Source of the DNA: Lotus japonicus
Lineage: Eukaryota > Streptophyta > Magnoliopsida > Fabales > Fabaceae
Direction: 5' to 3'
Length of the DNA: 64,000 nt
Assembly: GCF_012489685.1 (NCBI RefSeq)
Contig: NC_080042.1
Coordinates: 29,641,158 to 29,705,157 of the forward strand
In this document: positions 15,309-55,828 of the stretch, one piece after another
How positions within the stretch are numbered: the first letter of the stretch is position 1
How the letters are laid out: each line of letters opens with the position of its first letter
Notes under the pieces: model-generated
The model's input: only the letters and a program-made list of their open reading frames with translations
Databases searched by the model: none
What the model was told of the DNA's origin: nothing
Made by a program: the position numbers and the translations under genes

Positions 15309-15539
15309 ATCCGGATCACATTCATTGCATTTCACGCATACTTCACTCTGACTGGAATTGTGTGCTGTTTGATTTATTGAAGCATTGTTAGAGCCAATAA
15401 CATGCTAGGATTATTTATATATATATATTTCAACATATATATCTATACCCCATATCACATGTTGAATGTATATCTACTTATTTCCGTGAGTTGACCCTAG
15501 CGCCTTGGCTTTGGTTTCATGTTTGTGTTTGGGCGGTCG

Positions 15540-15911
15540 GCTTGCTGCCAGACGTCGACGGTGGATTGGGTTTCGATGGTCTCTTCCTCGGGGGGGATCA
15601 GGTTTGAGCTGGTTGATCGACATGCCCCCACCGCTTGGGTGATCGATCTTGTGGGTCATCAGGCGACGCACCGGGGAAGGGTCATGGAGGACCGGACTGA
15701 CGAGCGTGGACGTCTGACGAAAGGAGTTCTACGACGCATGGAGCTGAGCTTCAACTTGCCGACTTCAGTTCGCTGTGGACTCGGTACCGGGAGGGTAGGT
15801 TTAGGCATGCGTCATATTTTGTGTAGAGCTCTGATTCGTTTTGCTTTGGGACAGGGTAGGTTCCCGACGCATGACTTTTTGTGTGGCTCTCTTACTGAGG
15901 GATCACAGTGA
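15540..15911 (+). pseudogene. Short, start-less LTR ORF in A2 5' LTR
   Basis: Homologue of the LTR-encoded ORF: it retains VDWVSMVSSSGG, then GRVMEDRTDERGRLTKGV and RRMELSFNLP. The start has mutated (ACG at the position of ATG). The Pro/acidic C-terminal half is deleted between CGLGTGR and the sequence after the normal stop, so the frame runs into downstream LTR. The G tract has 7 bases (in frame). The 3' LTR copy (about 22760-23116) has 9, which shifts frame. Not functional as a protein. Confidence 0.8.
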
Positions 15912-19252: not shown

Positions 19253-19289
19253 GTTTCGAGGACGAAACTTTCTTTTTGGAGGGGAGTAT

Positions 19290-22200
19290 TGTAAGACCTA
19301 GATTTGCAGAACAAGTTAATTTCCGACTCACGCGTAGAATCAGTGTAAGCGTGACAGGAGTTTGTTGTTTGAGAAAGATCAATGAAGAAGAAAGTTCAGG
19401 AATTGTTTGAGGAATGTTGCGTAGTCGCTGTAGGAATTAGTGCGAGTCGTCTGCACACCTGCCTTATGGTGAGCGTGTCCAGAATAGGCTAATTTCGCTT
19501 TTAGAGCAACGTATTAAATGATATTTCGAATCCTTGGAAAATTTAAAGGTTCTCTTTATTTTTCCTTCGACCAGCGTTTCATTTCGGAACCCTGGACTGT
19601 ACGCACGAGAGTATTCACTTTTCGGAAGTCCGACGACGCTAATTTCTTTGCTTCGAAACCCTAGATTCGAGCGATGGATGAAGACTTTTTCTATTCGGGA
19701 CTTCTAACGAAGTTTCCGTCCGTGTTACCAGATTTGTTTCGACGTTTCTAATCTTTCTTCAGAAGGAAGTTTTCTCATCCGACATCAATTGCAAAAAGTA
19801 GTTTTGCGGTATATTTTGAAGCATACTGCGTTCAAGCCATTTTCTCACTTAAATGAACCCGATGCAAGTATCGCCCTTTCTTGGATCGATACTTAGATTA
19901 ATTGCATAATATGACAATGTCATATTTGTTCTAATTGTCTAACAGTTATTCTTTAGCTCAGTTTTTACTCATTTTCTTGTCGATGGATCGTTTTATTTTG
20001 CCCAAAGTGATCCAAATTTATATTTTATCATTTCATAGAGTTCCTCTTAATTTTTGGGATAATAATATATCACCCCTATATTTTTCTCTTAACTCTATGA
20101 GTTAAATCATTCGGTGTCTAAATCAATTCGTACTAGTTTTAAAATATCTCTCCCTAAATATCTAAACCATCCGTCCTTCTCCTCCCTCACTCACGTTATC
20201 TCTCTCAGAAGCATCACCACCAGACTTCAATATTTATTCATTTCCTTTCTTCCATACTTTTACTTTCCTTTTCTCCTTCACGTTTTTCTTCCCCTGGCAG
20301 CAACAAACCGACGCACACCACCTTCTTTTCCTCTTTCTTTCTTTCTCATTTTCTTTCTTCTTCTACAGATCACATTTTTCTTCTTCTTCTTTTCCACTTC
20401 TTTTATTCTTCTTTTTCTTCTTCCTTCATCAAACAATAACCACCATGCTAATTTCTTCTCCTCACATTCCAGCACCCAAAACGCACATAATGGTCCCTCT
20501 TCCCTCCCTCGCGTGATTTCTCTCTTGTGCAGCACCATGTCTTCATCTTCCTATTCTATGGTAAAGTCTCTTCTCCTTTTATCATGTTTTTAATGGGTAA
20601 AGTTGAGTTTTGATTTGTTATGCTTTTAAAAAAAAAATGACTTCCATCCAAAGTGCTTTTACAAATGTTATTCCCCATCATCGCATCTATGGATTTCACC
20701 ATTTAATTTTCTTAAAAGTTGTTTTTTTTAGTTAAGTGATTTTGGGATTTTAAGAGCTTTAATTTAAGTCTTGATTAGTTGTGTTTAAATGTTAAAAATG
20801 GATTTAGAAGTGATTTGGGGAAAAAGGAAAATTTATACATATTTATGTAGTCGTGGCCGAGCCTATGGCATGTGTTTTGGGTTTGGAAAATCAATTCTGA
20901 AACTTGTTTTGTTTAGTGAGAATCATAAGTTAAGTTTGAGGACTAAAAGTTTATTGTGGGAAAACTTTAGGATTAAAGCACAAGAGGCTGAGAAGTTTTG
21001 GGTTAAACTGAAGTTTTATAAGTCTTGGGGTTTGTTTGATAAATTTATTAAAGATTGAGGGTTGAAAAAGAACTTACTTTTATGTGAGGACCTTTTTGTG
21101 ATTATGTGCTTATCAAGGGACTAGGGTTAAATTATTTAAAAGTTGAGGAGTTGTTTGCGAAATGTGTTTTTTAAGGACATTTCTTTAAAACACAAATATT
21201 TTATCTTTGGACTTTAGTCCTTGAAACATAAAGTTTGTGCATTTTGCCTAAGTGAGCTAGAATGATTGGCTAAGTTTGTTCTGGAACTTTAGATTTGACT
21301 TTAGAGGCTAAGGTTTAGTATGTGAACTTGTGAAGGGTACGAAGGACGGAAGCGCTTGACGACGAAGCCAAAGAACAAACGAAAGTGAGCCAACACGGGA
21401 AAGCAAAGATATGATTGGATTTGATTTGAGTCGCAACTTAGTAAGGAAAGCGCCTAAGGTTAGGGCAACTTACTAATAGCTATGATTGCATGATAGGCGT
21501 CGATAAATTCCACTTATGCTTTATCTGATGTTGATTATGATGATGAGTTGATGTTATGATGTTTTTCCATAACTTGTGATATTGTGATATTGTTGGATTG
21601 TGCGTTTTGACGCGACTTCGGAGTGGAGATTCATTGATCTGGTGATCTTTGATATTTCAGGTTGGATGAACAACCCTAGGCAAGTTCAAATGTGGGGTTT
21701 GAGACTTAGCCATTCGTTGGGATTCGTTTGAATACTTAGACTTTCCCCGGGAAACTTCTTTTGGAGGGTTTTTCGGAAAACTTAGAATGATTAGAATTTC
21801 GAAAACTAGAGACATTGGGAGACTTAGACTTTGAGAAATAAACTCATAACCTGACTAATCCAATTCGAACCGTTTTTACTAAAAGAATAATTATAGGGAA
21901 CCTAACGGAGAAAATGATTGCGAAAGACGGGGAAAAGTCGACTTTTGTTGTGGGTTTGGAGAGTTATTGGAATTGGGAAAGCCACTGAGGTGAGCTACGG
22001 TGATGATTGAAAGTCACCGAGTACTCTAGTACTCTTGGGGTTTGTTATTCGAGTTGTGTTGTATTAACCGACACTAACTCTGGGTTTTGGGTGTTGGGGT
22101 TGTGTTGTATTGACCGACACTAACTCCGAGTCGTGTTGTATTGACCGACACTGACTCTGGCTTTGATTTTGGGTTTTGTTATTGGAGTTGTGTTGTATTG

Positions 22201-23452
22201 ACCGACACTGACTCCGAGTTGTGTTGTATTGACCGACACTAACTCTTGGGTTGTTTTGAGTTTGGGTTTGAGCTAAACACTTATGTGGTGAGGACGATTC
22301 GATGTTTGGCTAACCATATTGCATCAATCGGGTGAATAACGGGAATGGTTCACCTGTGCATCTCATGGTGAATGACGGGAATGGTTCACCACTGCATTAA
22401 TGATGAATAACGGGAATGGTTCATCATACGGTGAATAACGGGAATGGTTCACCAAGGATGAATAACGGGAATGGTTCATCCATACTGAAGAACGGGAATG
22501 CTTCACTTGTGGCGAACGGGAACGCGTCACAATCCGGATCACATTCATTGCATTTCACGCATACATTCACTCTGACTGGAATTGTGTGCTGTTTGATTTA
22601 TTGAAGCATTGTTAGAGCCAATAACATGCTAGGATTATTTATATATATATATTTCAACATATATATCTATACCCCATATCACATGTTGAATGTATATCTA
22701 CTTATTTCCGTGAGTTGACCCTAGCGCATTGGCTTTGGTTTCATGTTTGTGTTTGGGCGGTCGGCCTGCTGCCAGACGTCGACGGTGGATTGGGTTTCGA
22801 TGGTCTCTTCCTCGGGGGGGGGATCAGGTTTGAGCTGGTTGATCGACATGCCCCCACCGCTTGGGTGATCGATCTTGTGGGTCATCAGGCGACGCACCGG
22901 GGAAGGGTCATGGAGGACCGGACTGACGAGCGTGGACGTCTGACGAAAGGAGTTCTACGACGCATGGAGCTGAGCTTCAACTTGCCGACTTCAGTTCGCT
23001 GTGGACTCGGCATGCGTCATATTTTGTGTAGAGCTCTGATTCGTTTTGCTTTGGGACAGGGTAGGTTCCCGACGCATGACTTTTTGTGTGGCTCTCTTAC
23101 TGAGGGATCACAGTGAGTCAGTCGGACCATAGGGGTCTTTGCTTAGGCCATTCTGAGGCCGACTTTCTTTTGGATGACTGTACTTGTGGTACTTTTACTC
23201 ACACTTCGGAATCTGTATATATTTGCCTGCGGGCACACTACTTTGGAGTCACTGCGAGTGCGCGTGACGTAGGAGTGCAGCTGAGGCTGTACATGTTTAA
23301 ATTTGATGTATATTGGTTAGTTTAGTGGTTGGGTTATGTCTTTATTTTCTATTGCTATATTTAAAAGGAATCAATCGAAAAAAAATTACCTGTTTTCCGC
23401 GTAGAGTTTATTTTTGGTTACTAAAGTGGCACCCGGAAATCGGGGTGTTACA
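19290..23452 (+). mobile_element. 3' LTR of A2, 4,163 bp
   Basis: TGTAAGACCTAG ... GGGGTGTTACA, ending just before the GACTT duplication. It carries the ~315 bp missing from the 5' LTR, the foreign block, hairpin array 1 (22051-22245), hairpin array 2 (22331-22531) and the shortened LTR ORF with a frameshifting G tract near 22813. Confidence 0.92.
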
Positions 23453-24307
23453 GACTTCGTGCCTTTAGGATTAGCTGTGACAAATGTCGTTAGGAACATC
23501 GCTGTAAAATTTGTTTTCCGAAGTGTTAACTTTGAGGTTTTGGGCTTTTATTTTGGACCAAAACGCCCCTGTATAGCCGTATTTCGATCCGATTGTCCGA
23601 AAATTTTTCCGACAGTTTCTTTGCCTTAGTTTTACCCTAAAACTACCTTGTAAACAGATTAGATCGAAGAAAAAGAGCCGGAGCTCTTTTCTCTATATGG
23701 CCGAGAGCTTAGTCAAGGGGAGGGGTTTCGTTTTCGAAAACTTGTCGTTTCGTACCCGATTGTTGTATTCTGAAGCTTCGATGCTTTGTCTATCGTTAAT
23801 GAGTTGTATTGTGATCGAGCTAATCGATTTTGTTTGGATTTCTGCTTTGTTTTCTCCGAGGTTCAGTTGAAGAACTTTGGGTTTCTCAGAGCGATTGTGT
23901 GAAGGGAACTTAGACCACGAGGCTGGAGCAACTCGAGGTTAGGGCAACTTACTATTAGCTAAGACTGCATGATAGGCGTCGATAAATTCGACTTATACTT
24001 TACTTTGATGTTGCTTATGATGATGAACTAATGTTATGATGTTTTCCATAACTTATGATATTGAGATGTTATTGAATTGTGCGTTTTGACGCGACTTCGG
24101 AGTGGGGAATCATGGAACTGGTGATAGTTGATATTTCGGGTTGGGGAAACAACCCTATGCAAGTCCAAACATGGGGTTTGAGACTTAGCCATTCGTTGGT
24201 ATACTTAGACTTTCCCCGGGAATTTCTTTTGGCGGGTTTTTGGAAAACTTAGAATGGATAGAATTTTGAAAACTAGAGACTTTGAGAAATAAACTCATAA
24301 CTTGACT
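23453..24307 (+). mobile_element. 5' LTR of A1, part 2 of 3
   Basis: Resumes at ACTTCGTGCC exactly where part 1 stopped, after the repeated GACTT. It matches A3 at about 53697-54560. It contains the exon-2-like segment (23861-23937), bounded by TTCTCCGAG before and CTCGAG|GTTAGG after. It ends in TGACT (24303-24307), the duplication of B1. Confidence 0.9.
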
Positions 24308-24982
24308 TGTAAGGCCCAAGTTTTAACGCTTTGGATAAGTGAATAAAATAAAAGAGTTTATTTGATTAAGATAAATTTGTGAAGGAAAAAGGTTCAGGAA
24401 AAGTCCAAGAATTATCGAAAAACCGATAAGAGTTATAGCACGACTAACATACGCTTAATCCTAGGTCAAAGGTATTAGTGAATAGTTAATTTACGCTTTA
24501 GGACACGATGGAAACTAATTCCAAAAATCCTCAGAGAAATGTTAGAACTTCTCTTTTCCGTCCTTAAACAATTATTTCGATGCGAAATCCTGGAAAGTAC
24601 GAACGTCAAATTCCAATTCTCGGAAGTTTGCCGAAACGGAATCCCTGATAGTTCGAGAAAACCTAAGATCGACAGACGATGAAGACTTTTTCTATTCGGA
24701 GCTGCAAAAGAAGATTCCACCCGCGTTCTCCTATTTCTCTCATCATTCCTAATCTTTCTTCAGAAGGAAGTTTTCTCATCCGACGATCACTGCAAAAAGT
24801 AGTTTTTCGGGATAATCCGACTTACACCGACTTATGCCGATTTTGGATCTTTTGGTTTAATTCCAAGAATCCTGTTTTGAGTTCTAGAATTCTGTCGCCA
24901 GAACCTATCTTAGAATGCGCAGAGGAACGCGCAGGAAAAATCGGAATCGCAAAAAAATCTTTTTTCCGTTTTTTCCAAAACC

Positions 24983-24990
24983 TATAAATA
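24983..24990 (+). promoter_or_regulatory. TATA box of B1 5' LTR
   Basis: TATAAATA in the context CCTATAAATAGC. The same element recurs at 33625-33632 (3' LTR), 11997 (A1) and 53296 (A3). B2 LTRs have TATATATAG at 43014, 50743, 51655 and, in reverse, 49083-49090. Transcription would be expected to start about 30 bp downstream. Confidence 0.75.
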
Positions 24991-25791
24991 GCTTGAAAAT
25001 TAGATTTTTTGCAAAAAAATACCCATTTCCCCTCCCCAAACCCGCGAGCACCTAGAGAGAGAGAGAGATCCGGATCTTCGTCGTTTCTTGCCCGTTTGCT
25101 TCACCGATCGTCACTAATCGAAGACCTCGAGGTAGGTAAACTATACTCTCCTTCGAATCGTCGTTTCTGTCCACTTCTCCTACGACTTTCTGAGTTCAAA
25201 ATTTTGAGGTTTTTGAAAAACTGTTCAAATACGCTGATTTCAGTGTCTAAACTTCTTCCCTGCATGCTCCTGAGCGTGTTCTGCGGATTAGATTTTGTCA
25301 AATGTCGACGAAATGCCGCCGGGATCAATTTCTACCTTAAATACCCATTTTTCGGCAAAGTCGCAACCTTTACGCTCTAATCTATCGACTTGGCTTAGTG
25401 CTAGTAGGATTTGTCGTCATAAACGTCGTTGTGGACGTCCCCATCCAATTTGTTTTTCAAAAATCCAATTTTGAAATTTTGAGCTAAAAATAATGACCAA
25501 ACTACCCCTATATCAGTTTTCGATCCGAAAATTTTTCCGAGCCTAGAACCGTCTTAGTTACGGCTTATGTTAACCTAGGAACCAAGTTTGATCGAAGAAA
25601 AATCGACCCTCCCAATTAAAGGAAGTGGCCGAGAGCTATATCAAGGGGGGGGAGAATCCGATTTTTCGAAAACTTGTCTTAACGCGTTAGATTGTCGTAC
25701 CACGGAGGTAGAAGTGTACCGTGTAACCCTAGGACTCTTTGATTGCTGAGTTTCTGACTCTTGGTGTTGATTTCTGTGATTTTTGCTTAAG

Positions 25792-25869
25792 GTTCGTTTG
25801 AGGAGATTCCCAGAGATCAAGGAGAAGAGCTTGAAGAACATTTTGAGGAAGAAGCTGGAAGACCCACCG
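25792..25869 (+). other. Predicted second leader exon in B1 LTR
   Basis: A 78 bp segment between a 3' splice-like site (pyrimidine-rich, ...TTTTTGCTTAAG|G) and a strong donor (CACCG|GTGAGGG). The same arrangement occurs in B2 copies (near 43826, 52475) and A copies (23861, 54108). One frame is acidic and conserved (FEEIPRDQGEELEEHFEEEA in B1, FEELQEEQGLDCEE in B2). It contains no ATG. Splicing is inferred, not observed. Confidence 0.45.
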
Positions 25870-26497
25870 GTGAGGGCTACTCTCTGAATTACTAGATAAT
25901 GCTTTAGGGGTCGACAAATTCGACTTGATTTATGTGTTATGCACTAAATTGCTAAATGTCTGAATTGTTCTCTGAGGCTTCGGCCGACCTTGCTGAGTAT
26001 TTGATGCCATGATATTGTGTGCTAAATGATTCACATGCTACGTGCTACATGGTTAACTTAGGATGTGTTGGAATATGTTGTTTATGCTTTTGACTGAGCT
26101 GTTTTATTTATGCTATTCCACTTATACATGAGATTCTGAGGAGTGAGGATTACGGGCAGGTCATGCCAAATTTTTATGAGATTTTGAGAGAGTTTTAAAG
26201 GACGAACGGAGTTCGGACCTTGTTATGTTTTAATGGATCGAGACCTTCTCAGGGTATTATTTGAGATTGTGGGATCTCTGAAAACTCTTAGGAAGTATTA
26301 TAAGATTAAAATGAAAACTATTTTATCACGGAAAACTCATAAGACATTAATCAATTTCTAAATCCTTTGAACAATAATAATACCCTTAGATAAGAGCTTA
26401 GAGCCCGAATATTAGTTTGGGAAATATGAGAAGTGTCGTCGAGTCCACGTTTTGAGGAAATATACAAGTCTTCGAGTATGTTGAAAACTCTTTTGCT

Positions 26498-26633
26498 CGA
26501 TGAGCAGTTTAATGTTTGGCTATCTAAAGTTTAGCCGGAGACTATGAGTTTCCAAGTACTTCGGTACCTTTTCGCTCGATGAGCAGTTTATTGATTGGCT
26601 ATCTAAAGTTTAGCCGGGAACCATGAGTTCCAA
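26498..26633 (+). repeat. Duplicated hairpin module in B1 LTR
   Basis: Two successive units each contain GCTCGATGAGC (4 bp stem, 3-base loop) followed by GGCTA...TAGCC around TCTAAAGTT. The first unit also has outer arms AAACTC/GAGTTT. B2 has related hairpins (GCTCTGGGAGC and GCTCGTTGAGC near 44569 and 44650), so the stems persist while loop bases change. Confidence 0.6.
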
Positions 26634-27315
26634 AGTATCTTCTTCTTCTTTTGATTAATTCATTTTTGTCGCAGAATCGACATTTGCCTTAGGGTATTTT
26701 TTTTTTAGAGACTTTAAGTTACTTAGAACACGTGGCGACGTGTCGGGTGAGGTCGGAGACGTTGTTTGGCTAATCACTTGCATTCATGCACTCATTTTGA
26801 GGTTAATACACGGCGTGATACCGGACCTCGGTGGATTCCAAAATGGTCATAAGACCCGGATTTCCATATTTAGGACACTACGGTGGTCCTCAGTAGCAGA
26901 CGGAATGGCAGACCTACGGGTTCACTGCTGATCTGACTACTTTTGTGTGGTGTAAGAGACACGCGAGCAGGAAGGTACCCACCGTGGCTGGTGTTAGGGC
27001 CGCCTCGTTGATGTCCATCCTTCTTCCGGAATGCATTTTGTTACCCAGCATTGCATTTCATGCAACATACATGCTGACTTAGTTGCTGAGTGTGATTGGT
27101 ACCTGTTTATCATATTTGAGGCATGCTATTTGTTATTATGATTTCTTATATTCATTATGATACTTGCAACCCTAGGAAGTCATCCCTAAGATTATAAGCC
27201 TGAGAGGCAAATATTTATTATCCTATATTATATCTGGTTTTATTATTTATATAATTCTTTGGAGTTGACCCTCGCGTCTGCTGTGTGTGTTTGGGCGGAC
27301 TACGCCATTTGTCAG

Positions 27316-27798
27316 ATGAGTATGGCGGATTGGTTTACGATGGTCAGCCCCTCGGGGGGGACCAGGTACGAGATGCTTGATCAGGACGACCCAGGTGCAT
27401 GGGTGGTCGACCCCATAGGCCACCGTGCGACCTACACCGGTCGGATCATGGAGGACCGTGTTGACCGATTCGGACGCTTGACGGAGGGGGTGATGAGGAG
27501 GCACATAGTGAGCTTCAACCTGCCTCCAGGTGTACACTGTGGACCCGGCTTGGGAGGACCTCCACCGCCACCATCCCCTTCGGATGATGAGGACCCCTCT
27601 GAGGAGGTGCCAGTAGGTGGGGCTTCGACGGAGTCTAGTCCGTCTACTGCTGCTGCTGTCGTCGCGGATCTCGTTCCGGGCCCCGAGCCCGAGAGGCCAG
27701 TGCAGGAGCGCATTAGGGTGGACAGAGAGGGCAGTGTTGAGTATGTCGACTTAGTCGTCCTGGATGCAGATTCGGATGACGACCGCGCTAGCATGTAG
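27316..27798 (+). CDS. LTR-encoded ORF, B1 5' LTR, 160 aa
   Basis: I do not recognise this protein family. It lies wholly inside the LTR. The ATG at 27316 directly follows TTTGTCAG, a splice-acceptor-like site; the open frame extends upstream to a TTG without another ATG. The N-terminal core reads ADWFTMVSPSGGTRYEM, AWVVDP, GHRATYTGRIMEDR, GRLTEGV, then SFNLPPGVHCGPG. A proline run, DDEDPSEE and a Ser/Thr-rich stretch follow, and the protein ends YVDLVVLDADSDDDRASM, which resembles a SUMO-interacting motif. Homologues with the same order are in B2 (46237-46713) and A1 (37412-38098). Conservation between subfamilies argues for a real protein. Confidence 0.6.
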   Translation: MSMADWFTMVSPSGGTRYEMLDQDDPGAWVVDPIGHRATYTGRIMEDRVDRFGRLTEGVMRRHIVSFNLPPGVHCGPGLGGPPPPPSPSDDEDPSEEVPVGGASTESSPSTAAAVVADLVPGPEPERPVQERIRVDREGSVEYVDLVVLDADSDDDRASM

Positions 27799-28285
27799 GA
27801 TCGAGTGCTAGTGTGGGCTCCTCGGATAGGGATTAGTGTAGGAGTAGTGTCGATGCTCTGACCGTCATGCTTCAGTTTTGGGGACAGGGTAGTTTCCTAC
27901 CGGTAGCTTTTTGTGTGGTTTCCTATGGAGATCACAGAGAGCTGGTTGGATTTAGGGGGTCTTTTCTTAGGCCTCTGGGCCAACTTGTTCTCAGATTTTG
28001 AGGTTTAGTGTTGCGGACACAGTATTTTTACCTTGGACTGTACATATTGCCTTCGGGCGTTACTCTCTTTCTGTCACCCGTCACTGGAGGTTACTCGTGA
28101 CGTGGTTGTATTTAGCGAGGCATGTATATATAGTTGTATAGTAGTTTCTTTTATCTTTTGTTGGGAAGTTTATTGCTTTCTGTCTTTAGTTATATTGTCG
28201 AAAAAAAATAATTCACGTTTTTTTTCCGCTTAAGTATTTCTTTTGGTTACTAAAGTGACGCCACCGAAATCGGGGTGTTACATTG

Positions 28286-28297
28286 TGGTATCAGAGC
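28286..28297 (+). other. Primer-binding site of B1
   Basis: TGGTATCAGAGC, three bases after the 5' LTR, initiator Met tRNA type. Confidence 0.95.
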
Positions 28298-28493
28298 TTA
28301 GTCGAGTCTTTTGGGAGTCTTGGGGAATAGGTCTTCTGTGCTAGGTTGTGTGACTCTGCAAAGAGTAAAAATTGATTGTCTGCCAAGCGATTTTTCGCTT
28401 AGAATTGTTTGAAGTTATTGCTTAATCATATTGTATATTTATATTAGATGCTATCTTATGATGAGCACTAACTGTTTGTTAATTTAGCAGAAC

Positions 28494-29843
28494 ATGGTGA
28501 ACGCTAACCAACTAGCTGAGATGATGGCCACTATGGCCCAAGCTGTGACTGCACAGGCAAACGATAATGCTATGAGGCGTGCTGCTGAGGAGGCACGTGA
28601 TCAGCACCAACGCCAGAGGGAAGTGACAATGGACCAGAACAGAGGCCTGAATGATTTCAGGAGACAGGATCCACCTAAGTTCTCGGGGGGTACTGACCCG
28701 GACAAAGCGGATCTCTGGATCCAGGAGATTGAAAAGATCTTCGGTGTATTACAGACTGCTGAGGGGGCCAAGGTGGGAATGGCAACCTTTCTACTGTTGG
28801 GTGATGCTGAGTACTGGTGGAGAGGCGCCAGAGGAATGATGGAAGCAAACAACTTGGAAGTGAATTGGGTTTCGTTTCGTGCTGCTTTTCTGGAGAAGTA
28901 TTTTCCAGATAGTGCTCGGGACGAGCGTGAGTCGCAATTCCTGACACTTCGTCAGGGTAGCATGACCATCCCGGAATATGCTGCCAAGCTGGAATCGTTG
29001 GCCAAGCACTTTCGATTCTTCCGCAATGGGGTCGATGAACCCTACATGTGCAAGCGCTTTGTGAATGGGCTGAGGCCCGATATTGAAGACTCGGTGAAAC
29101 CGTTGGGAATCACTCGTTTTCAGACTTTGGTTGAGAAAGCCACTGAGGTGGAGATAATGAAGAACAGGAGACTGAACCGTGTTGGAACAGGAGGGCCGAT
29201 GAGGTCGGGCTCTCAAAATTTTCAAGGCAGAGGGAGATTTCAGAGCAGGAGGCCGTATCAACGTCCTGCAGGTAGAGGAATTGCTTCAGGATCTTATAGG
29301 CCCATGGTGGGTACTGCTGGAGGTTCTAGAGGTCAGACTGTGAACAGGGAGATGACCTGTTACAGATGTGGGCAGCCTGGGCACTATGCCAATGCTTGTA
29401 CTGACATGAGGCCCAAATGCTTTAACTGTAACAAGTTGGGGCATACTGCTGCTCAATGCAGAGCACCCAAGACAGAACCAGCTGTTAACACTGCTCGTGG
29501 GAAGCGTCCTGCTGCCAGGGCAAGAGTCTACACCATGGATGGTGAAGAAGCTGAAGGGGTTGATGGTCTGATCAGGGGAGACTGCGAGATTGACGGTAAT
29601 CTCCTAACTGTACTTTTCGATTCCGGAGCAACGCACTCTTTTATCTCTAGGGAATGTGCTGCTAGATTAAAACTTCCCGTTACTGCTTTGAGTTTCGATC
29701 TTATAGTTACCACACCTGCCAAAACTCTGCTTGCCAATACTGCATGCATGTATTGCCCAGTAACCTATAGAGATCGAGTTTACCATGCTAACCTAGTGTG
29801 CCTAACTCTCAAGAACCTAGATGTTATCCTAGGGATGGACTAG
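28494..29843 (+). CDS. gag: B1 GAG and protease, 449 aa, ends at an internal amber stop
   Basis: ATG at 28494 (MVNANQLAEMMATMAQ). The gag domain spans roughly residues 55-200 (DPPKFSGGTDPDKADLWIQE ... SMTIPEYAAKLESLAKHF). Two CCHC zinc knuckles follow, CYRCGQPGHYANAC at about 289 and CFNCNKLGHTAAQC shortly after. The aspartic protease has its active site at Asp376 ([10 protein letters not shown]). The frame ends at TAG (29841-29843) after DVILGMD, a place where A1 has Trp. The pol frame continues in the same phase, so this is one gag-pol frame with a nonsense codon rather than two genes. Confidence 0.93.
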   Translation: MVNANQLAEMMATMAQAVTAQANDNAMRRAAEEARDQHQRQREVTMDQNRGLNDFRRQDPPKFSGGTDPDKADLWIQEIEKIFGVLQTAEGAKVGMATFLLLGDAEYWWRGARGMMEANNLEVNWVSFRAAFLEKYFPDSARDERESQFLTLRQGSMTIPEYAAKLESLAKHFRFFRNGVDEPYMCKRFVNGLRPDIEDSVKPLGITRFQTLVEKATEVEIMKNRRLNRVGTGGPMRSGSQNFQGRGRFQSRRPYQRPAGRGIASGSYRPMVGTAGGSRGQTVNREMTCYRCGQPGHYANACTDMRPKCFNCNKLGHTAAQCRAPKTEPAVNTARGKRPAARARVYTMDGEEAEGVDGLIRGDCEIDGNLLTVLFDSGATHSFISRECAARLKLPVTALSFDLIVTTPAKTLLANTACMYCPVTYRDRVYHANLVCLTLKNLDVILGMD

Positions 29844-32800
29844 TTGTCCCACTATCATTGTCTTCTGGACTGCAGCCGAAAGAGAGTGGTATTTCCCGAC
29901 TCGGATCTTTCCGAGTATTTATTCGCCAATCAGATCAGCGTCTCTCTGAATGAAGGATCTCAAGAGTATCCAGTTTTGTTAAGCTTGGAGAGTAAAGGGA
30001 ATTCGGAAGTGAGTAATATTCCAGTTGTGAGGGACTTCGCGGATGTTTTTCCTGGCGATGTACCTGGTTTGCCGCCTGTACGCGACATTGAATTTGCTAT
30101 TGACATCGTACCGGGAACAGGACCGATTTCGATTGCACCATATCGGATGGCACCTGCGGAATTGGTGGAGTTGAAGTCTCAACTTGAGGATCTTCTGTCG
30201 AAGGGATTCATCCGACCAAGCGTTTCACCTTGGGGAGCACCCGTCTTATTGGTGAAAAAGAAGGATGGGAAATCTAGACTTTGTGTCGACTATCGACAAC
30301 TGAACAAAGTGACCGTCAAGAATAGGTATCCGCTACCTAGAATTGATGATTTGATGGATCAACTACGAGGAGCTGCGATATTCTCAAAGATAGACCTGAA
30401 GTCGGGTTACCATCAGATCAGAGTAAAGACTGAGGATATCCAGAAGACGGCATTCCGGACTCGTTATGGACACTATGAGTATCTAGTGATGCCATTTGGG
30501 GTGACAAACGCACCTGCTATCTTCATGGATTACATGAACAGGACATTCCATCCGTTCTTGGATCGATTCGTCGTGGTGTTTATCGACGACATTCTGATCT
30601 ACTCAAAGAACGCTGAAGATCATGAAGGGCACTTGCGTCAGGTTTTACAAGTGTTGAGAGAGACAAAGCTGTACGCCAACCCTTCTAAGTGTGAATTTTG
30701 GCTCGAAGAGGTAAAATTCTTGGGCCATGTGATCTCTAAAGAAGGTATAGCTGTGGATCCAGCAAAGGTAGAGACGGTGTTGTCATGGGAACGACCAAAG
30801 ACCGTGACTGAGATCAGGAGTTTTGTCGGTTTGGCGGGATACTATCGTCGCTTCATTGAGAATTTCGCCAAGATCGTTGGACCCTTGACTCAACTTACGA
30901 GAAAGGATCAACCTTTTGCATGGACCGAAGCGTGCGAAACTAGCTTTCAGACAATGAAGGAACGTTTGACGACGTCACCTGTACTCGTCTTACCGCAACC
31001 AGAGGAACCGTATGAAGTGTACTGTGATGCTTCGCATCAAGGTTTGGGATGTGTGCTGATGCAGCATCGGAAGGTGGTGGCTTATGCTTCACGACAACTG
31101 AAGACTCATGAGAAGAACTATCCGACTCATGACTTAGAACTTGCTGCCATTGTGTTTTCGTTGAAGATCTGGAGACATCACTTATATGGATGCAATTTCA
31201 CCATATTTAGTGATCACAAGAGCTTGAAGTACTTGTTCGACCAGAAGGAGTTGAACATGAGACAACGACGTTGGATGGAGTTTCTCAAGGATTACGATTT
31301 TACCTTACATTACCATCCTGGAAAAGCTAATGTTGTTGCTGATGCATTGAGCAGGAAGATGCATATCTCGTCAATGATGGTGAAGGAGCTGCAACTGCTG
31401 GAACAATTCCGAGATTTGAGTTTGGACGTAAGAGTATCCGAGGGAGAACTGAGGTTCGGGATGATCAGGATTACCAATGGATTGATGGAAGAAATCCGAG
31501 ACCAACAGTTACAAGATGAATTTTTACTCGGAAAAAGGAATTTGGTAATTCAGGGTAAGGACCCGGAATTCAAGGTAGGAAGTGACAATATCCTACGGTG
31601 TAAGGGTAGAGTTTGCGTACCTAACAACCCTGACTTAAGGAGGTTGATAATGGACGAAGGTCACAAAAGTAAGTTGAGCATTCACCCTGGAATGAAAAAG
31701 ATGCATCAGGACTTGAAGGTGAATTTTGGGTGGCCAGGAATGAAAAGACAAGTGGCAGAATATGTAGCTGCATGTTTAACCTGTCAAAAGGCGAAGGTGG
31801 AACATCAGAAATCTGCGGGTATGCTACAAAGCTTGGATGTACCTCAATGGAAATGGGATAGCATATCGATGGATTTTGTCGTGGCATTACCAAGAACTCA
31901 AAAAGGATATGATTCGATTTGGGTAGTCGTGGATCGATTGACTAAGTCGGCTCATTTCATACCTGTGAGAACTACGTACAACGTGGATAAGCTATCAGAG
32001 ATTTATATAGCTGAGATTGTGCGACTTCATGGAGTGCCAACAAGTATCGTTTCCGATAGAGACCCGAAGTTTACTTCACATTTGTGGGGAGCTCTTCATG
32101 AGGCTTTGGGAACGAGGCTGAGATTAAGTTCTGCTTATCATCCACAGACTGATGGGCAAACTGAGAGAACTATCCAATCATTGGAGGATTTGCTACGAGC
32201 TTGCGTGTTAGACAACAAGGGCAGTTGGGATACCCTATTGCCACTGATTGAATTCACATATAACAACAGTTTTCATACGACCATAGGTATGGCACTGTAT
32301 GAGGCATTGTATGGCCGCAAGTGTAGAACACCTTTATGTTGGTATCAAGATGGAGAGAATTTGTTAGTAGGACCGGAACTTCTGCAACAGACGACTGAGA
32401 AGATTAAACAGATCAGAGAGAAGATGAAGGCTTCTCAGAGTAGACAGAAGAGCTATGCAGATCAAAGGCGCAGAACCGTGGAATTTGAAGAAGGAGATCA
32501 TGTGTTTCTGCGAGTTACTCAGACTACAGGAGTTGGTCGAGCAATCAAGTCAAGAAAGCTTACGCCAAAGTTCATTGGACCTTATCAGATTACTCGTCGT
32601 GTAGGACCGGTAGCTTATCAGATCGTACTACCGCCTTTTCTATCAAACATTCACGATGTATTCCATGTGTCACAACTGAGGAAGTATATTGCTGATCCGA
32701 CACATGTTATCGAGCTGGATGACGTTGAGTTGAAGGATAACTTGTCTTTCGAAACACCGCCAATCAGCATTGGTGACACAAGGATAAAGCAGTTGAGGGG

Positions 32801-32912
32801 AAAAGAGATCGAATTAGTGAAGGTTATTTGGAACAAGGACACCGGCGATGCGACGTGGGAGCTGAAGGAAAAGATCAAGGAACAGTACCCAGAACTTTTT
32901 ACTGAACCATAA
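29844..32912 (+). CDS. pol: B1 POL: RT, RNase H, integrase, chromodomain-like tail
   Basis: Same phase as gag, 1,022 codons to TAA at 32912. RT begins near [20 protein letters not shown]; the catalytic [11 protein letters not shown] maps to about 30573-30605 (FIDD at 30579-30590). RNase H has [15 protein letters not shown] and [10 protein letters not shown]. Integrase has the zinc region ([18 protein letters not shown] ... CLTCQKAK) and the core D, D and E ([29 protein letters not shown]). The GPY-type segment ([20 protein letters not shown]) and reduced chromodomain tail ([20 protein letters not shown]) follow. No stop or frameshift inside. It lacks its own ATG start, so it would need readthrough of the amber codon or trans supply. 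Confidence 0.94.
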
Positions 32913-32933
32913 GTTTCGAGGTCGAAACTTTCT

Positions 32934-32949: not shown

Positions 32950-35900
32950 TGTAAGGCCCAAGTTTTAACGCTTTGGATAAGTGAATAAAATAAAAGAGTT
33001 TATTTGATTAAGATAAATTTGTGAAGGAAAAAGGTTCAGGAAAAGTCCAAGAATTATCGAAAAACCGATAAGAGTTATAGCACGACTAACATACGCTTAA
33101 TCCTAAGTCAAAGGTATTAGTGAATAGTTAATTTACGCTTTAGAACACGATGGAAACTAATTCCAAAAATCCTCAGAGAAATGTTAGAACTTCTCTTTTC
33201 CGTCCTTAAACAATTATTTCGATGCGAAATCCTGGAAAGTACGAACGTCAAATTCCAATTCTCGGAAGTTTGCCGAAACGGAATCCCTGATAGTTCGAGA
33301 AAACCTAAGATCGACAGACGATGAAGACTTTTTCTATTCGGAGCTGCAAAAGAAGATTCCACCCGCGTTCTCCTATTTCTCTCATCATTCCTAATCTTTC
33401 TTCAGAAGGAAGTTTTCTCATCCGACGATCACTGCAAAAAGTAGTTTTTCGGGATAATCCGACTTACACCGACTTATGCCGATTTTGGATCTTTTGGTTT
33501 AATTCCAAGAATCCTATTTTGAGTTCTGGAATTCTTTCGCCAGAACCTATCTTAGAATGCGCAGAGGAACGCGCAGGAAAAATCGGAATCGCAAAAAAAT
33601 CTTTTTTCCGTTTTTTCCAAAACCTATAAATAGCTTGAAAATTAGATTTTTTGCAAAAAAATACCCATTTCCCCTCTCCAAACCCGCGAGCACCTAGAGA
33701 GAGAGAGAGATCCGGATCTTCGTCGTTTCTTGCCCGTTTGCTTCACCGATCGTCACTAATCGAAGACCTCGAGGTAGGTAAACTATACTCTCCTTCGAAT
33801 CGTCGTTTCTGTCCACTTCTCCTACGACTTTCTGAGTTCAAAATTTTGAGGTTTTTGAAAAACTGTTGAAATACGCTGATTTCAGTGTCTAAACTTCTTC
33901 CCTGCATGCTCTTGAGCGTGTTCTGCGGATTAGATTTTGTCGAATGTCGACGAAATGCCGCCGGGATCAATTTCTACCCTAAATACCCATTTTTCGGCAA
34001 AGTCGCAACCTTTACGCTCTAATCTATCGACTTGGCTTAGTGCTAGTAGGATTTGTCGTCATAAACGTCGTTGTGGACGTGCCCATCCAATTTGTTTTTC
34101 AAAAATCCAATTTTGAAATTTTGAGCTAAAAATAATGACCAAACTACCCCTATATCAGTTTTCGATCCGAAAATTTTTCCGAGCCTAGAACCGTCTTAGT
34201 TACGGCTTATGTTAACCTAGGAACCAAGTTTGATCGAAGAAAAATCGACCCTCCCAATTAAAGGAAGTGGCCGAGAGCTATATCAAGGGGGGGGAGAATC
34301 CGATTTTTCGAAAACTTGTCTTAACGCGTTAGATTGTCGTACCACGGAGGTAGTAGTGTACCGTGTAACCCTAGGACTCTTTGATTGCTGAGTTTCTGAC
34401 TCTTGGTGTTGATTTCTGTGATTTTTGCTTAAGGTTCGTTTGAGGAGATTCCCAGAGATCAAGGAGAAGAGCTTGAAGAACATTTTGAGGAAGAAGCTGG
34501 AAGACCCACCGGTGAGGGCTACTCTCTAAATTACTAGATAATGCTTTAGGGGTCGACAAATTCGACTTGATTTATGTGTTATGCACTAAATTGCTAAATG
34601 TCTGAATTGTTCTCTGAGGCTTCGGCCGACCTTGCTGAGTATTTGATGCCATGATATTGTGTGCTAAATGATTCACATGCTACGTGCTACATGGTTAACT
34701 TAGGATGTGTTGGAATATGCTGTTTATGCTTTTGACTGAGCTGTTTTATTTATGCTATTCCACTTATACATGAGATTCTGAGGAGTGAGGATTACGGGCA
34801 GGTCATGCCAAATTTTTATGAGATTTTGAGAGAGTTTTAAAGGACGAACGGAGTTCGGACCTTGTTATGTTTTAATGGATCGAGACCTTCTCAGGGAATT
34901 ATTTGAGATTGTGGGATCTCTGAAAACTCTTAGGAAGTATTATAAGATTAAAATGAAAACTATTTTATCACGGAAAACTCATAAGACATTAATCAATTTC
35001 TAAATCCTTTGAACAATAATAATACCCTTAGATAAGAGCTTAGAGCCTGAATATTAGTTTGGGAAATATGAGAAGTGTCGTCGAGTCCACGTTTTGAGGA
35101 AATATACAAGTCTTCGAGTATGTTGAAAACTCTTTTGCTCGATGAGCAGTTTAATGTTTGGCTATCTAAAGTTTAGCCGGAGACTATGAGTTTCCAAGTA
35201 CTTCGGTACCTTTTCGCTCGATGAGCAGTTTATTGATTGGCTATCTAAAGTTTAGCCGGGAACCATGAGTTCCAAAGTATCTTCTTCTTCTTTTGATTAA
35301 TTCATTTTTGTCGCAGAATCGACATTTGCCTTAGGGTATTTTTTTTTTAGAGACTTTAAGTTACTTAGAACACGTGGCGACGTGTCGGGTGAGGTCGGAG
35401 ACGTTGTTTGGCTAATCACTTGCATTCATGCACTCATTTTGAGGTTAATACACGGCGTGATACCGGACCTCGGTGGATTCCAAAATGGTCATAAGACCCG
35501 GATTTCCATATTTAGGACACTACGGTGGTCGTCAGTAGCAGACGGAATGGCAGACCTACGGGTTCACTGCTGATCTGACTACTTTTGTGTGGTGTAAGAG
35601 ACACGCGAGCAGGAAGGTACCCACCGTGGCTGGTGTTAGGGCCGCCTCGTTGATGTCCATCCTTCTTCCGGAATGCATTTTGTTACCCAGCATTGCATTT
35701 CATGCAACATACATGCTGACTTAGTTGCTGAGTGTGATTGGTACCTGTTTATCATATTTGAGGCATGCTATTTGTTATTATGATTTCTTATATTCATTAT
35801 GATACTTGCAACCCTAGGAAGTCATCCCTAAGATTATAAGCCTGAGAGGCAAATATTTATTATCCTATATTATATCTGGTTTTATTATTTATATAATTCT

Positions 35901-36924
35901 TTGGAGTTGACCCTCGCGTCTGCTGTGTGTGTTTGGGCGGACTACGCCATTTGTCAGATGAGTATGGCGGATTGGTTTACGATGGTCAGCCCCTCGGGGG
36001 GGACCAGGTACGAGATGCTTGATCAGGACGACCCAGGTGCATGGGTGGTCGACCCCATAGGCCACCGTGCGACCTACACCGGTCGGATCATGGAGGACCG
36101 TGTTGACCGATTCGGACGCTTGACGGAGGGGGTGATGAGGAGGCACATAGTGAGCTTCAACCTGCCTCCAGGTGTACACTGTGGACCCGGCTTGGGAGGA
36201 CCTCCACCGCCACCATCCCCTTCGGATGATGAGGACCCCTCTGAGGAGGTGCCAGTAGGTGGGGCTTCGACGGAGTCTAGTCCGTCTACTGCTGCTGCTG
36301 TCGTCGCGGATCTCGTTCCGGGCCCCGAGCCCGAGAGGCCAGTGCAGGAGCGCATTAGGGTGGACAGAGAGGGTAGTGTTGAGTATGTCGACTTAGTCGT
36401 CCTGGATGCAGATTCGGATGACGACCGCGCTAGCATGTAGGATCGAGTGCTAGTGTGGGCTCCTCAGATAGGGATTAGTGTAGGAGTAGTGTCGATGCTC
36501 TGACCGTCATGCTTCAGTTTTGGGGACAGGGTAGTTTCCTACCGGTAGCTTTTTGTGTGGTTTCCTATGGAGATCACAGAGAGCTGGTTGGATTTAGGGG
36601 GTCTTTTCTTAGGCCGCTGGGCCAACTTGTTCTCAGATTTTGAGGTTTAGTGTTGCGGACACAGTATTTTTACCTTGGACTGTACATATTGCCTTCGGGC
36701 GTTACTCTCTTTCTGTCACCCGTCACTGGAGGTTACTCGTGACGTGGTTGTATTTAGCGAGGCATGTATATATAGTTGTATAGTAGTTTCTTTTATCTTT
36801 TGTTGGGAAGTTTATTGCTTTCTGTCTTTAGTTATATTGTCGAAAAAAAATAATTCACGTTTTTTTTCCGCTTAAGTATTTCTTTTGGTTACTAAAGTGA
36901 CGCCACCGAAATCGGGGTGTTACA
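32950..36924 (+). mobile_element. 3' LTR of B1, 3,975 bp
   Basis: Same length as the 5' LTR with scattered substitutions only. TATA box at 33625. The second copy of the LTR ORF is intact. The right edge is exact: GGTGTTACA then TGACT. Confidence 0.96.
35958..36440 (+). CDS. LTR-encoded ORF, B1 3' LTR, 160 aa
   Basis: The same protein as at 27316-27798; I see no amino-acid difference between the two copies, only a silent change near 36374. It has the CAG|ATG start context, the 7-base G tract in frame, and the LVVLDADSDDD tail. In a full-length RNA the 5' copy would be in the leader and this copy in the 3' region. Function unknown. Confidence 0.6.
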   Translation: MSMADWFTMVSPSGGTRYEMLDQDDPGAWVVDPIGHRATYTGRIMEDRVDRFGRLTEGVMRRHIVSFNLPPGVHCGPGLGGPPPPPSPSDDEDPSEEVPVGGASTESSPSTAAAVVADLVPGPEPERPVQERIRVDREGSVEYVDLVVLDADSDDDRASM

Positions 36925-37411: not shown

Positions 37412-38098
37412 ATGGCGGACTGGTTTTCGATGGTCTCTCCCTCGGGGGGGGGGGGGATCAGGTATGAGATGGTGGATCGTCATGCCCCGACCGCTTGGGT
37501 GATCGATGTTGCGGGTCACCGAGCGACGTACCGGGGAAGGGTCATGGAGGACCGGACAGACGAGCGTGGACGATTGACGAGGGGAGTGCTACGACGCATG
37601 GAGCTGAGCTTTGACTTGCCGCCTTCAGTTCGCTGTGGACCACGTACTGGTCGAGGACCACCTGCACCTCCTCCGACTTCATCTTCTTCCGATGACAAGG
37701 ACCCAGCTGAGATCGAGGTTGATGTTGTTACACCTGTTGCGCCACCTCCTGCTACTGCTATCGATCCTACCGACGTGGCGTCGTCCTCGAGGCTCGTGCA
37801 GCCGAAGAGGGAGTTTGTTGTTCCATCTGCCACATGTCGCTTTCCTTTTACTCCACCGCGCGGCTATCGTGTGGATCCCCTGGTTCGGGTGGTGGAGGAG
37901 GATGTTCTTACTGGAGAGGTGGATGTTGAGACGGGCTTGACTAGGACGGTGCGCAGGACAGTTAGGAGGGAGGTCGTGGACTTGGACACCGAGATGATTA
38001 CGGTGGATTCCGACTCGGACTCCGACAGCAGTGGGGACAGCTACTCGCCGAGCGACGAGGGAGAGGAGGAGGAGCTATGGGCAGTACTGGGAGGGTAG
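37412..38098 (+). CDS. LTR-encoded ORF, A1 (long form), 228 aa
   Basis: Homologue of the B1 LTR ORF with a longer C-terminal half. Start MADWFSMVSPSGG, then RYEMVDRHAPTAWVIDV, GHRATYRGRVMEDRTD, GRLTRGVLRR and LPPSVRCGP. A Pro/Ser stretch with SSSSDDKDPAE follows. The extra region has RTVRRTVRREVVDLD, then EMITVDSDSDSDSSGD and an acidic end. The G tract is 13 bases, still in frame, giving extra glycines. The CAG normally preceding ATG is missing: a small deletion joins GGCCTG to TCGATGG. The frame is otherwise undamaged, although this element's gag-pol is broken. Confidence 0.55.
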   Translation: MADWFSMVSPSGGGGIRYEMVDRHAPTAWVIDVAGHRATYRGRVMEDRTDERGRLTRGVLRRMELSFDLPPSVRCGPRTGRGPPAPPPTSSSSDDKDPAEIEVDVVTPVAPPPATAIDPTDVASSSRLVQPKREFVVPSATCRFPFTPPRGYRVDPLVRVVEEDVLTGEVDVETGLTRTVRRTVRREVVDLDTEMITVDSDSDSDSSGDSYSPSDEGEEEELWAVLGG

Positions 38099-45300: not shown

Positions 45301-45646
45301 CTGTACCTATTGGGTTTATTATTTACGTAATTCTTTGGAGTTGACCCTCGCGTCTTCTGTGTGTGTTTTGGCGGACAACGCCCTTTGTCAGATGTCTTTA
45401 GCGGACTGGTTCACAATGGTCCACCCTTCGTGGGGGACTAGATACGAGATGATAGACTAGGATGACCCCGGCGCGTGGGTGGTAGACCCCGCTAGCCATC
45501 GCGCGACGTACTCCGGGAGGATCATGGAGGATAGGGTAGATAGGGAAGGACGCTTGATGGAAGGAGTGCTGAGGAGGAGCACTGTCAGCTTCAACTTGCC
45601 GCTAGGAGTGCATTGCGGACCAGGATTAGGAGCACCACCGCCACCG
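42364..45646 (+). mobile_element. B2 LTR, forward, truncated at both ends
   Basis: Homologous to 50091 onward and to the complement of the solo LTR at 45756-49795. It lacks the first ~56 bp (the junction joins the A-rich segment to GGGTTGAT) and stops inside the LTR ORF at CCACCG. It has TATATATA at 43014, the donor-like GTGTCGAG|GTATAG (about 43160) and the exon-2-like segment near 43826. With the reverse LTR it forms a long, imperfect inverted repeat. Confidence 0.85.
45392..45646 (+). pseudogene. LTR ORF, forward B2 copy, stopped and truncated
   Basis: Starts CAG|ATGTCTTTAGCGGACTGG like the intact B2 copy. An in-frame TAG at 45458-45460 stands where the intact copy has CAG (Gln in MIDQDD). 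Homology to the core continues (GRIMED, GRLMEGVLRR, FNLPLGVHCGPG) to 45646, where the LTR is cut off. Confidence 0.8.
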
Positions 45647-45755: not shown

Positions 45756-48700
45756 TGTAACACCCCGATTTCGGTGGCGTCACTTTAGTCACCAAAATAA
45801 ACTTAATGCGGAAAAACGTGAATATTTTTTTTTGTCTATAATATAAACAAGACTGAAATAAATAAAACCCAAATGCGAAAGACAACAGAACTAATATACA
45901 ATATATATAACAGCCCCCGCTGTAAATAGCAACCTCGTCACGAGTAACCTCCAGTGACGGAAAGAAGAAAAGTGTAACGCTCGTAGGCAACATGTATAGA
46001 CCAACGCAAAGGTGAAGTGTCCGCATCACAAACCTCAAAAATGAGAATAAGCTGACCCATCGGCCTAAAACAAGACCTCCTAAGTCCAACCAACTCTCTG
46101 TGATTCCCGTAAAGAAACCACACAAAAAGCTATAGGCGGGAAACTACCCTGTCCCCAAAGAAACAAATGATGTTCAGAGCTAAGACTCTACTCCTACACT
46201 AATCCTATCTCGAGGAGCTCATACCAGCACTAAAACCTACATGCTAGCATGATCGTCGTCTGAATCTGAATCCAGAACGACCAAGTCTACAAACACTATC
46301 CGTCCTCCCCTCGCAACCGCAATGCGCTCCGGTGCTGGACTCACGGGCTTTGGGCCCGAACCATGATCATCAATGATTGCAACGGTGGGTGTACTGGACT
46401 CTGATGAATGCACTCCCACAGGCTCCTCCTCGGAGGGGTCCTCATCATCCGAAGACGACGGTGGCGGTGGTGCTCCCACTCCTGGTCCGCAATGCACTCC
46501 TGGCGGCAAGTTGAAGCTGACAGTGCTCCTCCTCAGCACTCCTTCCATCAAGTGTCCTACTCTGTCTACCATGTCCTCCATGATCCTCCCCGAGTACGTC
46601 GCGCGATGGCTAGCGGGGTCTACCACCCACGAACCGTGGTCATCCTGGTCTATCATCTCGTATCTAGTCCCCCCCGAAGTGTGGACCATTGTGAACCAGT
46701 CCGCTAAAGACATCTGACAATGGGCGTTGTCCGCCAAAACACACACAGAAGACGCGAGGGTCAACTCCAAAGAATTATGTAAATAATAAACCCAATAGGT
46801 ACAGATAAGAGATAACCACTTAGGCTTATAGCTAGAGATAGCATCCTAGGGTTGCATATTCCACAATGAATATAACGACAATAATAACAATTAACATGTT
46901 CCAAATAGGATTAACAAGTAACAATCACACTCAGCAACTAAATTAGTATGCATGTTGCATGATGTGCAAATGACAGTTAACCCAGTTAACCAAATGCATT
47001 CCGGAAGGGATGGACATCAACGGATCAGCCCTAACACCAGCCACGGTGGGACCATTTCAGCCCGCGTGCCTCTTACACCAACAACAACGGTAGTCAGATT
47101 AGCAGTAAACCCGAAGGTCTGCCATTTCGGTCTGCTACTAAGAGTCGTCTACAAACGCTCTTACGCGGAAATCCGGGTCTTATGACCATTTTGGAATCCA
47201 CCGAGGTCCGAAGTCCGTCTCGTGTTAATACCTCATTAATGGTGCATGAATGCGAAATGATTAGCTAAACAACGTCTCCGACCTCACTCGACACGTCGCC
47301 ACGTGTTCTAGCTAAATTAATGTCTCTAAAAGCTTACCCTAAGGTAACAGTCGATTCTGCGACAAAAGACACTTCTTCACAACAACACATAACTCATGAT
47401 GATCTCCAAATCATCCGACTCATCTCCATCCGATGGTCACAACTGCTCAACGAGCAAAGAGTATCACATACTCGGAAACTACCTGTTTTACGGACTTATC
47501 CCCCGGATAGTCCAACAACACAACTGCTCCCAGAGCACAAGAGTATCAACATACTCAAAACTTCTCAATATCTCAACACTTGGATCCGACGACACTTCTC
47601 GTTTTCCAAAAACTAAGATTTGACTCCTAAGCTTTCCTTCGAGATTATTATCATTATTAAAAGGTTTAAAGGTTGTTTAATGACTTATGAGTTTTCCTTA
47701 CAAAATAGTTTCCACTTTTGTCTTATCGCAAATCTTATAAGTTCTCGGGATCTCCTAATCCCAAATGACTCCAGAGAATGTCTCGATCCATGAAAACCAT
47801 AACAAGGCCCGAATCTCATTCGTCCTATCAAACTTTCCCCAAAATCTCAAAATAAAATCGGCATGACCTGCCCGCTATTCTCACGACTCAGAATCACAGA
47901 TATCATTGAAAAGGCATAATTACATCAGCACAATCAACCAACATGTCATATATCAACATAATCTAAAATAACCACGTAGCACTTAGCATATAAAGCATGC
48001 ATCACACATCCTAGATTACCCACTTAGCACGTAACATGTAATTCAATCTCAAAAACATTCAGTAGATGAATCATCTACATTGTCAGCCGAAGCCTCAGAA
48101 AACATTTTTCCAATCAAACACAAACAAGTGCGGAAACAGTAAATCAAGTCGAAGTATCGACACCTAAGCATTAACTAAGGATTCAGTGAGAAGCCCTCAC
48201 CTGAAGATTCTCCAGGATTATCTTCTATCACTCCTTCACAATCAAAGCCTTGCTCTTCAGGAAATTCCTCAAAAGAACCTTTAGAGTAAGAACCACAGAA
48301 ATCAATCACAATGAGTCAGAAACTCAGCAAACAATACTCACTAAGGTTACACGAAGTAGTATATACTCCGAGGTACGATAAACTAGCGCGAAAAGACAAG
48401 TTTTCGAAAAAGGAATTTTCCTCCCTCCCCCCTAGGGTGCTCGGCCACTATTGGTAATTGGGTGGGTCGATTTTTCTTCGATCAAACTTGGTTCCTAGGT
48501 TATTATTAGTCGTAACTAAGGGTATTCTAAACTCGGAAAAATTATCGGATCGAAAACTGTCACAGGGGTATTTTGGTCAATATTTTTGCTCAGAATTTCA
48601 AAACTGAAATTTCGAAAAACAAATTGGATGGGGACGTCACCATCGACGTTTATGACAACTAATCCTACTAGCACTAAGCTAAGGCGATAGTTTTCAGCCC

Positions 48701-55518: not shown

Positions 55519-55828
55519 ATGTCGATGGTCGACTGGTTCTCGACGGTCTCTCCCTCGGGGGGGGATCAGATATGAGCTGCTGGATCGGGATGCCCCCACC
55601 GCTTGGGTGATCGATGTAGCTGGTCACCGGGCGACGTATCGGGGAAGGGTCATGGTGGACCGGACTGACGAGCGTGGACGTCTGACGAAAGGAGTTCTAT
55701 GGCGCATAGAGTTGAGCTTCTACTTGCCGACTTCAGATCGTTGTGGGTTTGGCACTGGGAGGTTAGGTTTGGGCAGGCGTCATGTTTTGTGTAGAGCTCT
55801 GATTCGTTTTGCTTTTGGGATCGGGTAG
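55519..55828 (+). pseudogene. LTR ORF, A3, frameshifted and shortened
   Basis: It has CCAG|ATGTCGATGGTCGACTGG, so start and acceptor context are intact. The G tract is 8 bases, one more than the in-frame 7, so translation from the ATG stops soon after. The next frame holds the rest (GIRYELLDRDAPTAWVIDVA, GHRATYRGRVM, LPTS). The acidic C-terminal half is deleted at the same place as in A2. Confidence 0.8.

Follow-up and report, generated by a model that had tools for sequence, protein, structure and literature searches.

We provide evidence that the long terminal repeats (LTRs) of gypsy retrotransposons in Lotus japonicus carry an open reading frame (ORF) of their own, and that this LTR-resident ORF is almost certainly protein-coding. 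The frame is under purifying selection, which within the B lineage concerns the core and the C-terminus of the product and between the A and B lineages the whole frame. All copies discussed here lie in a single window, meaning the whole stretch of 64 kb that was analysed, and the located features are collected in Table 1.

The element B1 is a Ty3/gypsy element (24308-36924) with a TGACT target-site duplication on both sides. Its LTRs have TG...CA ends, are 3975 bp each and differ at 20 of 3975 positions; a PBS-like TGGTATCAGAGC follows directly after the 5' LTR (at 28286). Pfam matches in the interior appear in the Ty3/gypsy order (gag, protease, RT, RNase H, integrase). Since the ORF occupies positions 3009-3491 of the 3975 LTR positions it is situated in the LTR and not in the internal region, so that the location proposed by an earlier sequence-only reading is borne out. 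No Pfam match to a chromodomain was obtained in B1 pol or in the last 90 residues of pol; the C-terminal sequence of the integrase is one that we take to resemble a chromodomain, and we suspect that B1 is a chromovirus of the Tekay clade. B1 itself sits within the A1 LTR: the stretches on either side of B1 (23453-24307 and 36930-38688) are collinear with the LTR of C.

Eight copies of the ORF are found in the window, and the full open frame is kept in four of these (both LTRs of B1, the reverse B2 LTR and A1), all at the places given by the sequence-only reading; a share of four in eight speaks against the frame being general. The remaining four (forward B2, A2, A3 and C) are the remnants that it had also listed, C as a probable one: A2 is still an open frame of 130 aa, while A3 and C are frameshifted. 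The core of A2 (15552-15788) has ACG in place of the usual start codon. The tail is present in A1 and missing from the A-type LTRs A2 (15540-15915), A3 (22764-23120) and C (55510-55830), and a G-run in the core varies in length with respect to B1 and A2 (+6 in A1, +2 in A3, +1 in C). A1 starts at its second Met because it lacks 10 bp that are present in C, among them the AG of the acceptor and the A with which the first ATG begins. In B1, the one young element that was looked at, the frame is intact in both LTRs. No PBS is seen beside the 3' end of the reverse B2 LTR.

The copies had been assigned to three gypsy subfamilies. This division does not hold: A1 and C share 78-86% DNA identity over three blocks, and because C is this close to A there are two lineages, one formed by B and the other by A together with C, instead of three equally distant ones. 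Separately, we observed that the A2 and A3 LTRs (11373-16313 and 19289-23452) share 98% identity over 3.8 kb and enclose a shortened interior; they might be the two ends of one element, but no matching target-site duplication was seen in their flanks.

Table 1. Position of the features located in the window (positions are those of the whole stretch; a slash marks a splice junction).
Feature	Position	Strand	Remarks
A2 LTR frame	15519..15911	+	open, 130 aa from upstream ATG at 15519; tail lost
Core remnant, A3 LTR	22775..23014	+	frameshift in G-run, tail lost
5' LTR of B1	24308..28282	+	TG...CA ends, BLASTN self-comparison, TGACT duplication
TATA box CTATAAATAG, B1 5' LTR	24982..24991	+	674 bp into LTR, ~2.3 kb before ORF
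Counterpart of first coding exon of P0001	25786..25869	+	tblastn; ends in splice donor CCG/GTGAGG
Predicted intron, 1446 nt	25870..27315	+	acceptor TTTGTCAG/ATG at 27315/27316
LTR ORF, B1 5' copy	27316..27798	+	160 aa; core, linker, acidic C-terminus
Possible 3'-end region of LTR transcript	28100..28200	+	putative, from TTGTAT-like stretch in alignment
B1 gag-pol frame	28494..32912	+	single in-frame stop, codon 450, inside protease
3' LTR of B1	32950..36924	+	BLASTN self-comparison, ends, comparison with 5' LTR
LTR ORF, B1 3' copy	35958..36440	+	same protein; one synonymous difference from 5' copy
LTR ORF, A1	37412..38098	+	228 aa, begins at second Met
ORF remnant, forward B2 LTR	45392..45628	+	in-frame stop; stops short after core
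LTR ORF, reverse B2 LTR	46237..46713	-	158 aa
Core remnant, C LTR	55519..55756	+	one-base frameshift in G-run, tail lost
G-run in ORF core	37440-37470 (A1), 15590 (A2), 22810 (A3), 55560 (C)

A coding function is indicated by the pattern of substitutions. Compared along their whole length, the LTRs of B1 and B2 have ~74% identity, and by plain DNA identity the ORF is not conspicuous within their alignment; it is codon phase that sets it apart. We scanned this alignment for pN/pS in 237-bp windows, in all frames and on both strands (n=7480). The lowest values of all 7480 windows (0.18-0.24, against a median of 0.88) coincide with the frame and strand of the ORF. The best window starts at 27361 (0.185), and the window at the ATG of the ORF ranks 22nd of 7480 (0.206). 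Among the 5882 windows starting outside 27100-27900 none falls below 0.45, and their median is 0.87.

Estimates of dN/dS on the aligned ORFs (Nei-Gojobori), an analysis that the sequence-only reading had proposed, are 0.158 for B1-B2 (95% bootstrap 0.09-0.24), 0.238 for B1-A1 (0.13-0.38) and 0.236 for B2-A1 (0.13-0.41), ratios that are approximate because dS is 1.1-1.9 and thus near saturation. The uncorrected pN/pS between B1 and B2 is 0.271, a value as low as which was reached in none of 2000 neutral simulations (null median 0.914, minimum 0.564). A stop-free frame was retained in 112 of the 2000 neutral simulated copies (indels not counted), in line with the earlier argument that neutral LTR sequence would not keep the frame. 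Within A/C the constraint on the core is weaker (pN/pS 0.28-0.46), as it is when the two B2 copies are compared (0.463); these figures are uncorrected proportions and include broken copies. Antisense ORFs at 27432-27794 (minus strand) and 46373-46717 (plus strand) were considered as well and rejected: the listed minus-strand windows with a low pN/pS share sequence with the ORF and are interrupted by stops.

It might be argued that signals in the DNA or RNA keep the frame incidentally, or that the frame encodes a leader peptide which controls the translation of gag. The ORF does lie upstream of gag in the predicted leader, and its G+C content of 61% exceeds that of the adjoining LTR sequence (40-43% on both sides). 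Nonetheless, the constraint is codon-phased (66 of the 122 changes between B1 and B2 fall on codon position 3) without such windows away from the ORF, so that the window scan and the neutral simulations largely refute the signal version, and with 160-228 aa the product is long for a leader peptide. We consider this explanation highly improbable.

The encoded protein can be divided into a core (residues 1-79), a linker (80-136) and a C-terminal part of 24 codons, for which pN/pS between B1 and B2 is 0.206, 0.478 and 0.167, respectively. Between B1 and A1 the corresponding values are 0.402, 0.532 and 0.542, with a loose A-B alignment in the tail; since the C-terminus is here no better kept than the linker, it is only within B that the C-terminal part is clearly constrained. 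The proteins are acidic (pI 4.3-4.6); those of B have a pI of 4.3-4.5 (core 5.6-5.8), while the core of A1 is basic (pI 10). No significant Pfam, PDB-sequence or fold relative of the ORF protein was found, the fold search having used a low-confidence model of the core. This AlphaFold2 model, built from 19 sequences as part of the structure prediction suggested earlier, has a mean pLDDT of 55, rising to 59-76 in blocks across residues 11-70, where strands predominate, and yielded no convincing structural relative.

The C-termini (VDLVVLDADSDDD in B1, VDLVVLDSDSDDD in B2 and MITVDSDSDSD in A1) have a hydrophobic stretch and, after it, residues that are acidic or serine, a composition which we take to match that of a SUMO-interacting motif (SIM). 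A strict SIM-type pattern is present at the C-terminus of 10 of the 15 proteins tested (out of 19 sequences), and shuffled proteins match it in 3-12% of cases. It is absent from B1 (LDAD instead of LDSD), P0001, P0005, P0009 and P0019. The conserved acidic C-terminus within B would also suit a protein whose role is not in silencing but in the particle or at integration, where it might for instance steer the integrase to SUMO-marked chromatin. Both the location of the ORF and the selection on it are compatible with any step of the cycle; nothing in the sequence, however, links the protein to the integrase, and we regard a role of this kind as rather unlikely.

Sixteen database proteins are homologous to the ORF product. 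The nine that are named all derive from Lotus japonicus (eight NCBI gene models and one UniProt/nr entry), and no database match is identical to the B1 protein. P0016, P0017 and, in shorter form, P0012 are without the tail, like A2, A3 and C, which suggests that a tail-less A-type variant may have spread. Another explanation would be that the LTR captured a fragment of a host gene and that the copies are still alike through recent spread. Host genes have been taken up by plant retrotransposons elsewhere, according to the excerpt of a review (PMC7264820), but none of the 16 homologues belongs to an annotated host gene family, as judged from the proteins alone. Moreover, the shared gene is not recent, given that synonymous sites between B1 and A1 are near saturation (dS 1.7). 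Capture of a host fragment is consequently an improbable explanation.

With respect to expression, a candidate promoter is found far upstream of the ORF. The TATA box of the B1 5' LTR recurs as CTATAAATAG at 33624, 11996 and 53295, and a CTATATATAG version is present in four B2-like LTRs. The pattern CTATAWATAG has 12 matches at 8 sites in the window (the palindromic form being counted on both strands) against 0.21 expected, and these sites fall in LTR copies of the lineages described here. They occupy an aligned place in B1, in the B2 copies B2s and B2f, in A2 and in C; no match to the pattern was found in A3. TATATAT at 28125 was rejected as the main promoter, as it is not kept in A2, A3 and C, though it is present in B2 and A1. 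The block that contains the TATA box (24678-25001) is conserved among the LTRs of B1, A2 and C (~75% DNA identity), and part of it also matches a second place in A2.

Comparison with the protein of the Lotus gene model P0001 points to a spliced transcript: the junction of P0001 aligns with the splice sites of B1. The donor is present in five B-type LTRs, and a pattern search found none in A2 or C; the acceptor CAG is kept in seven of the eight copies, A1 being the one that has lost it. For B, splicing is supported, as donor and acceptor are both conserved in the B-type LTRs. Counted from an assumed start at 25015, the number of upstream ATGs drops from 41 in the unspliced to 5 in the spliced form. 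Taken as a coding exon, exon 1 fares poorly: in B1 the match to the N-terminal extension of P0001 is 62% identical without a Met at its start, the match in the reverse B2 LTR is weak (E 0.093), and none of the listed windows with a low pN/pS is located there. Exon 1 is more likely a leader exon. Overall, these features make it likely that the ORF is expressed from a spliced mRNA that starts, and would be able to end, within the LTR. Just before the ATG of gag we also noted a branch-point-like CTAAC/CTAAT together with CAG (28466-28496 in B1, 38724-38757 in A1), on account of which the B donor might serve gag as well.

A spliced mRNA and an intron-containing genomic RNA are also what the main rival explanation builds on, namely that the protein works in RNA export in the manner of Rev or CERV, being made from the spliced mRNA and taking the genomic RNA out of the nucleus. 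The genomic RNA would indeed keep the predicted 1446-nt intron, and Cer1 of C. elegans has such a factor in CERV, which according to the excerpt of PMC10309623 is produced from a spliced mRNA and is phosphoserine-dependent. CERV is likewise a protein of an LTR retrotransposon outside gag-pol; it belongs to a nematode element, and the two are likened by description only. On the other hand, the acidic B proteins do not suggest RNA binding, although the core of A1 is basic. On balance we think an export function unlikely.

The explanation that we favour instead is that the ORF encodes a SUMO-binding accessory protein. Transcription would start ~30 bp past the TATA box, so that the ORF would belong to the transcribed leader (R/U5) instead of U3. 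Once the intron is spliced out, most upstream ATGs would be gone and the ATG of the ORF would stand at the start of exon 2. The accessory protein itself is predicted to be small and probably nuclear, its beta-rich core being joined by a flexible linker to a C-terminal motif of the SUMO-interacting type (a hydrophobic strand and then D/S residues, as in the B2 protein). Through SUMO binding the protein may be brought to SUMO-modified host chromatin or silencing factors, and it could in this way help the element to stay expressed or to integrate. As stated in the excerpt of PMC6084981, silencing in Arabidopsis does not require the SIMs of MOM1 and PIAL2, and a SUMO route via MOM1/PIAL2 is weakened by this. 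The whole chain, from a selected LTR gene through a spliced LTR mRNA to a SUMO-binding accessory protein, has in our view about an even chance of being correct.

As a model for such a mechanism we used VANC21 of VANDAL21, a transposon protein that acts against the silencing of its own element. In the excerpt of PMC8616336, VANC21 is linked to hypomethylation of VANDAL21 sequences; it comes from a class II element, in contrast to the LTR retrotransposon studied here, and the likeness is by description only. Plant aORFs, including the 5' aORF of sunflower Tekay, resemble the LTR ORF in being extra conserved ORFs beyond gag-pol, without a known domain and with a long disordered part. An aORF is kept by most copies of its family; of the eight copies in the window, four have the frame in full. 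The sunflower aORF lies on the plus strand 5' of gag-pol (as given in the excerpt of PMC11728184) and is compared by description only. The sequence-only reading had held that extra ORFs in plant elements are usually interior and that an LTR gene would be unusual, which agrees with the excerpt of a review (PMC7264820) that assigns aORFs to the internal region, unlike the ORF inside the LTR described here. Among the literature matches listed, no title or start of an abstract mentions an LTR-resident ORF in a plant retrotransposon, in a search confined mostly to literature outside subscription. Because the ORF is inside the LTR, an element carries it twice and a lone LTR retains it.

Accessory proteins encoded in the LTR are known from retroviruses, as in the case of MMTV sag (located in U3) and other retroviral LTR ORFs. 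The parallel with sag drawn earlier stands only loosely, in so far as both concern an accessory protein in LTR sequence, a comparison by position only. It probably does not extend to the region of the LTR: since the TATA box lies ~2.3 kb upstream, the ORF would be placed downstream of the transcription start, in the predicted R/U5 or leader, and not in U3. Carried furthest, each LTR would be a complete gene (promoter, leader exon, intron, coding exon and terminator) for a host-facing protein acting through SUMO, and solo LTRs would keep making this protein and protect the family in trans, as a plant counterpart of the retroviral accessory genes encoded in LTRs. We put this forward tentatively, as a possibility with the weight of probability against it.

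Two further observations concern other parts of the window. At 58922-61927 (minus strand) there is an ORF of 1001 aa with a Pfam match to Transposase_32 that is just below threshold (E 2.5e-11, 44.2 bits against 45); this domain is reported in an additional ORF of Athila in the excerpt of PMC11728184. Frames of copia-type gag and RT are located near the two ends of the window (3859-5802 and 62215-63843, minus strand).

It is general practice to regard LTRs as regulatory DNA that does not code for protein, and to use their divergence as a neutral clock. A selected gene in the LTR breaks both assumptions for these families. With such a gene, an element protein could still be expressed from a solo LTR, and the ORF provides a defined target for studying how plant retrotransposons deal with host control.
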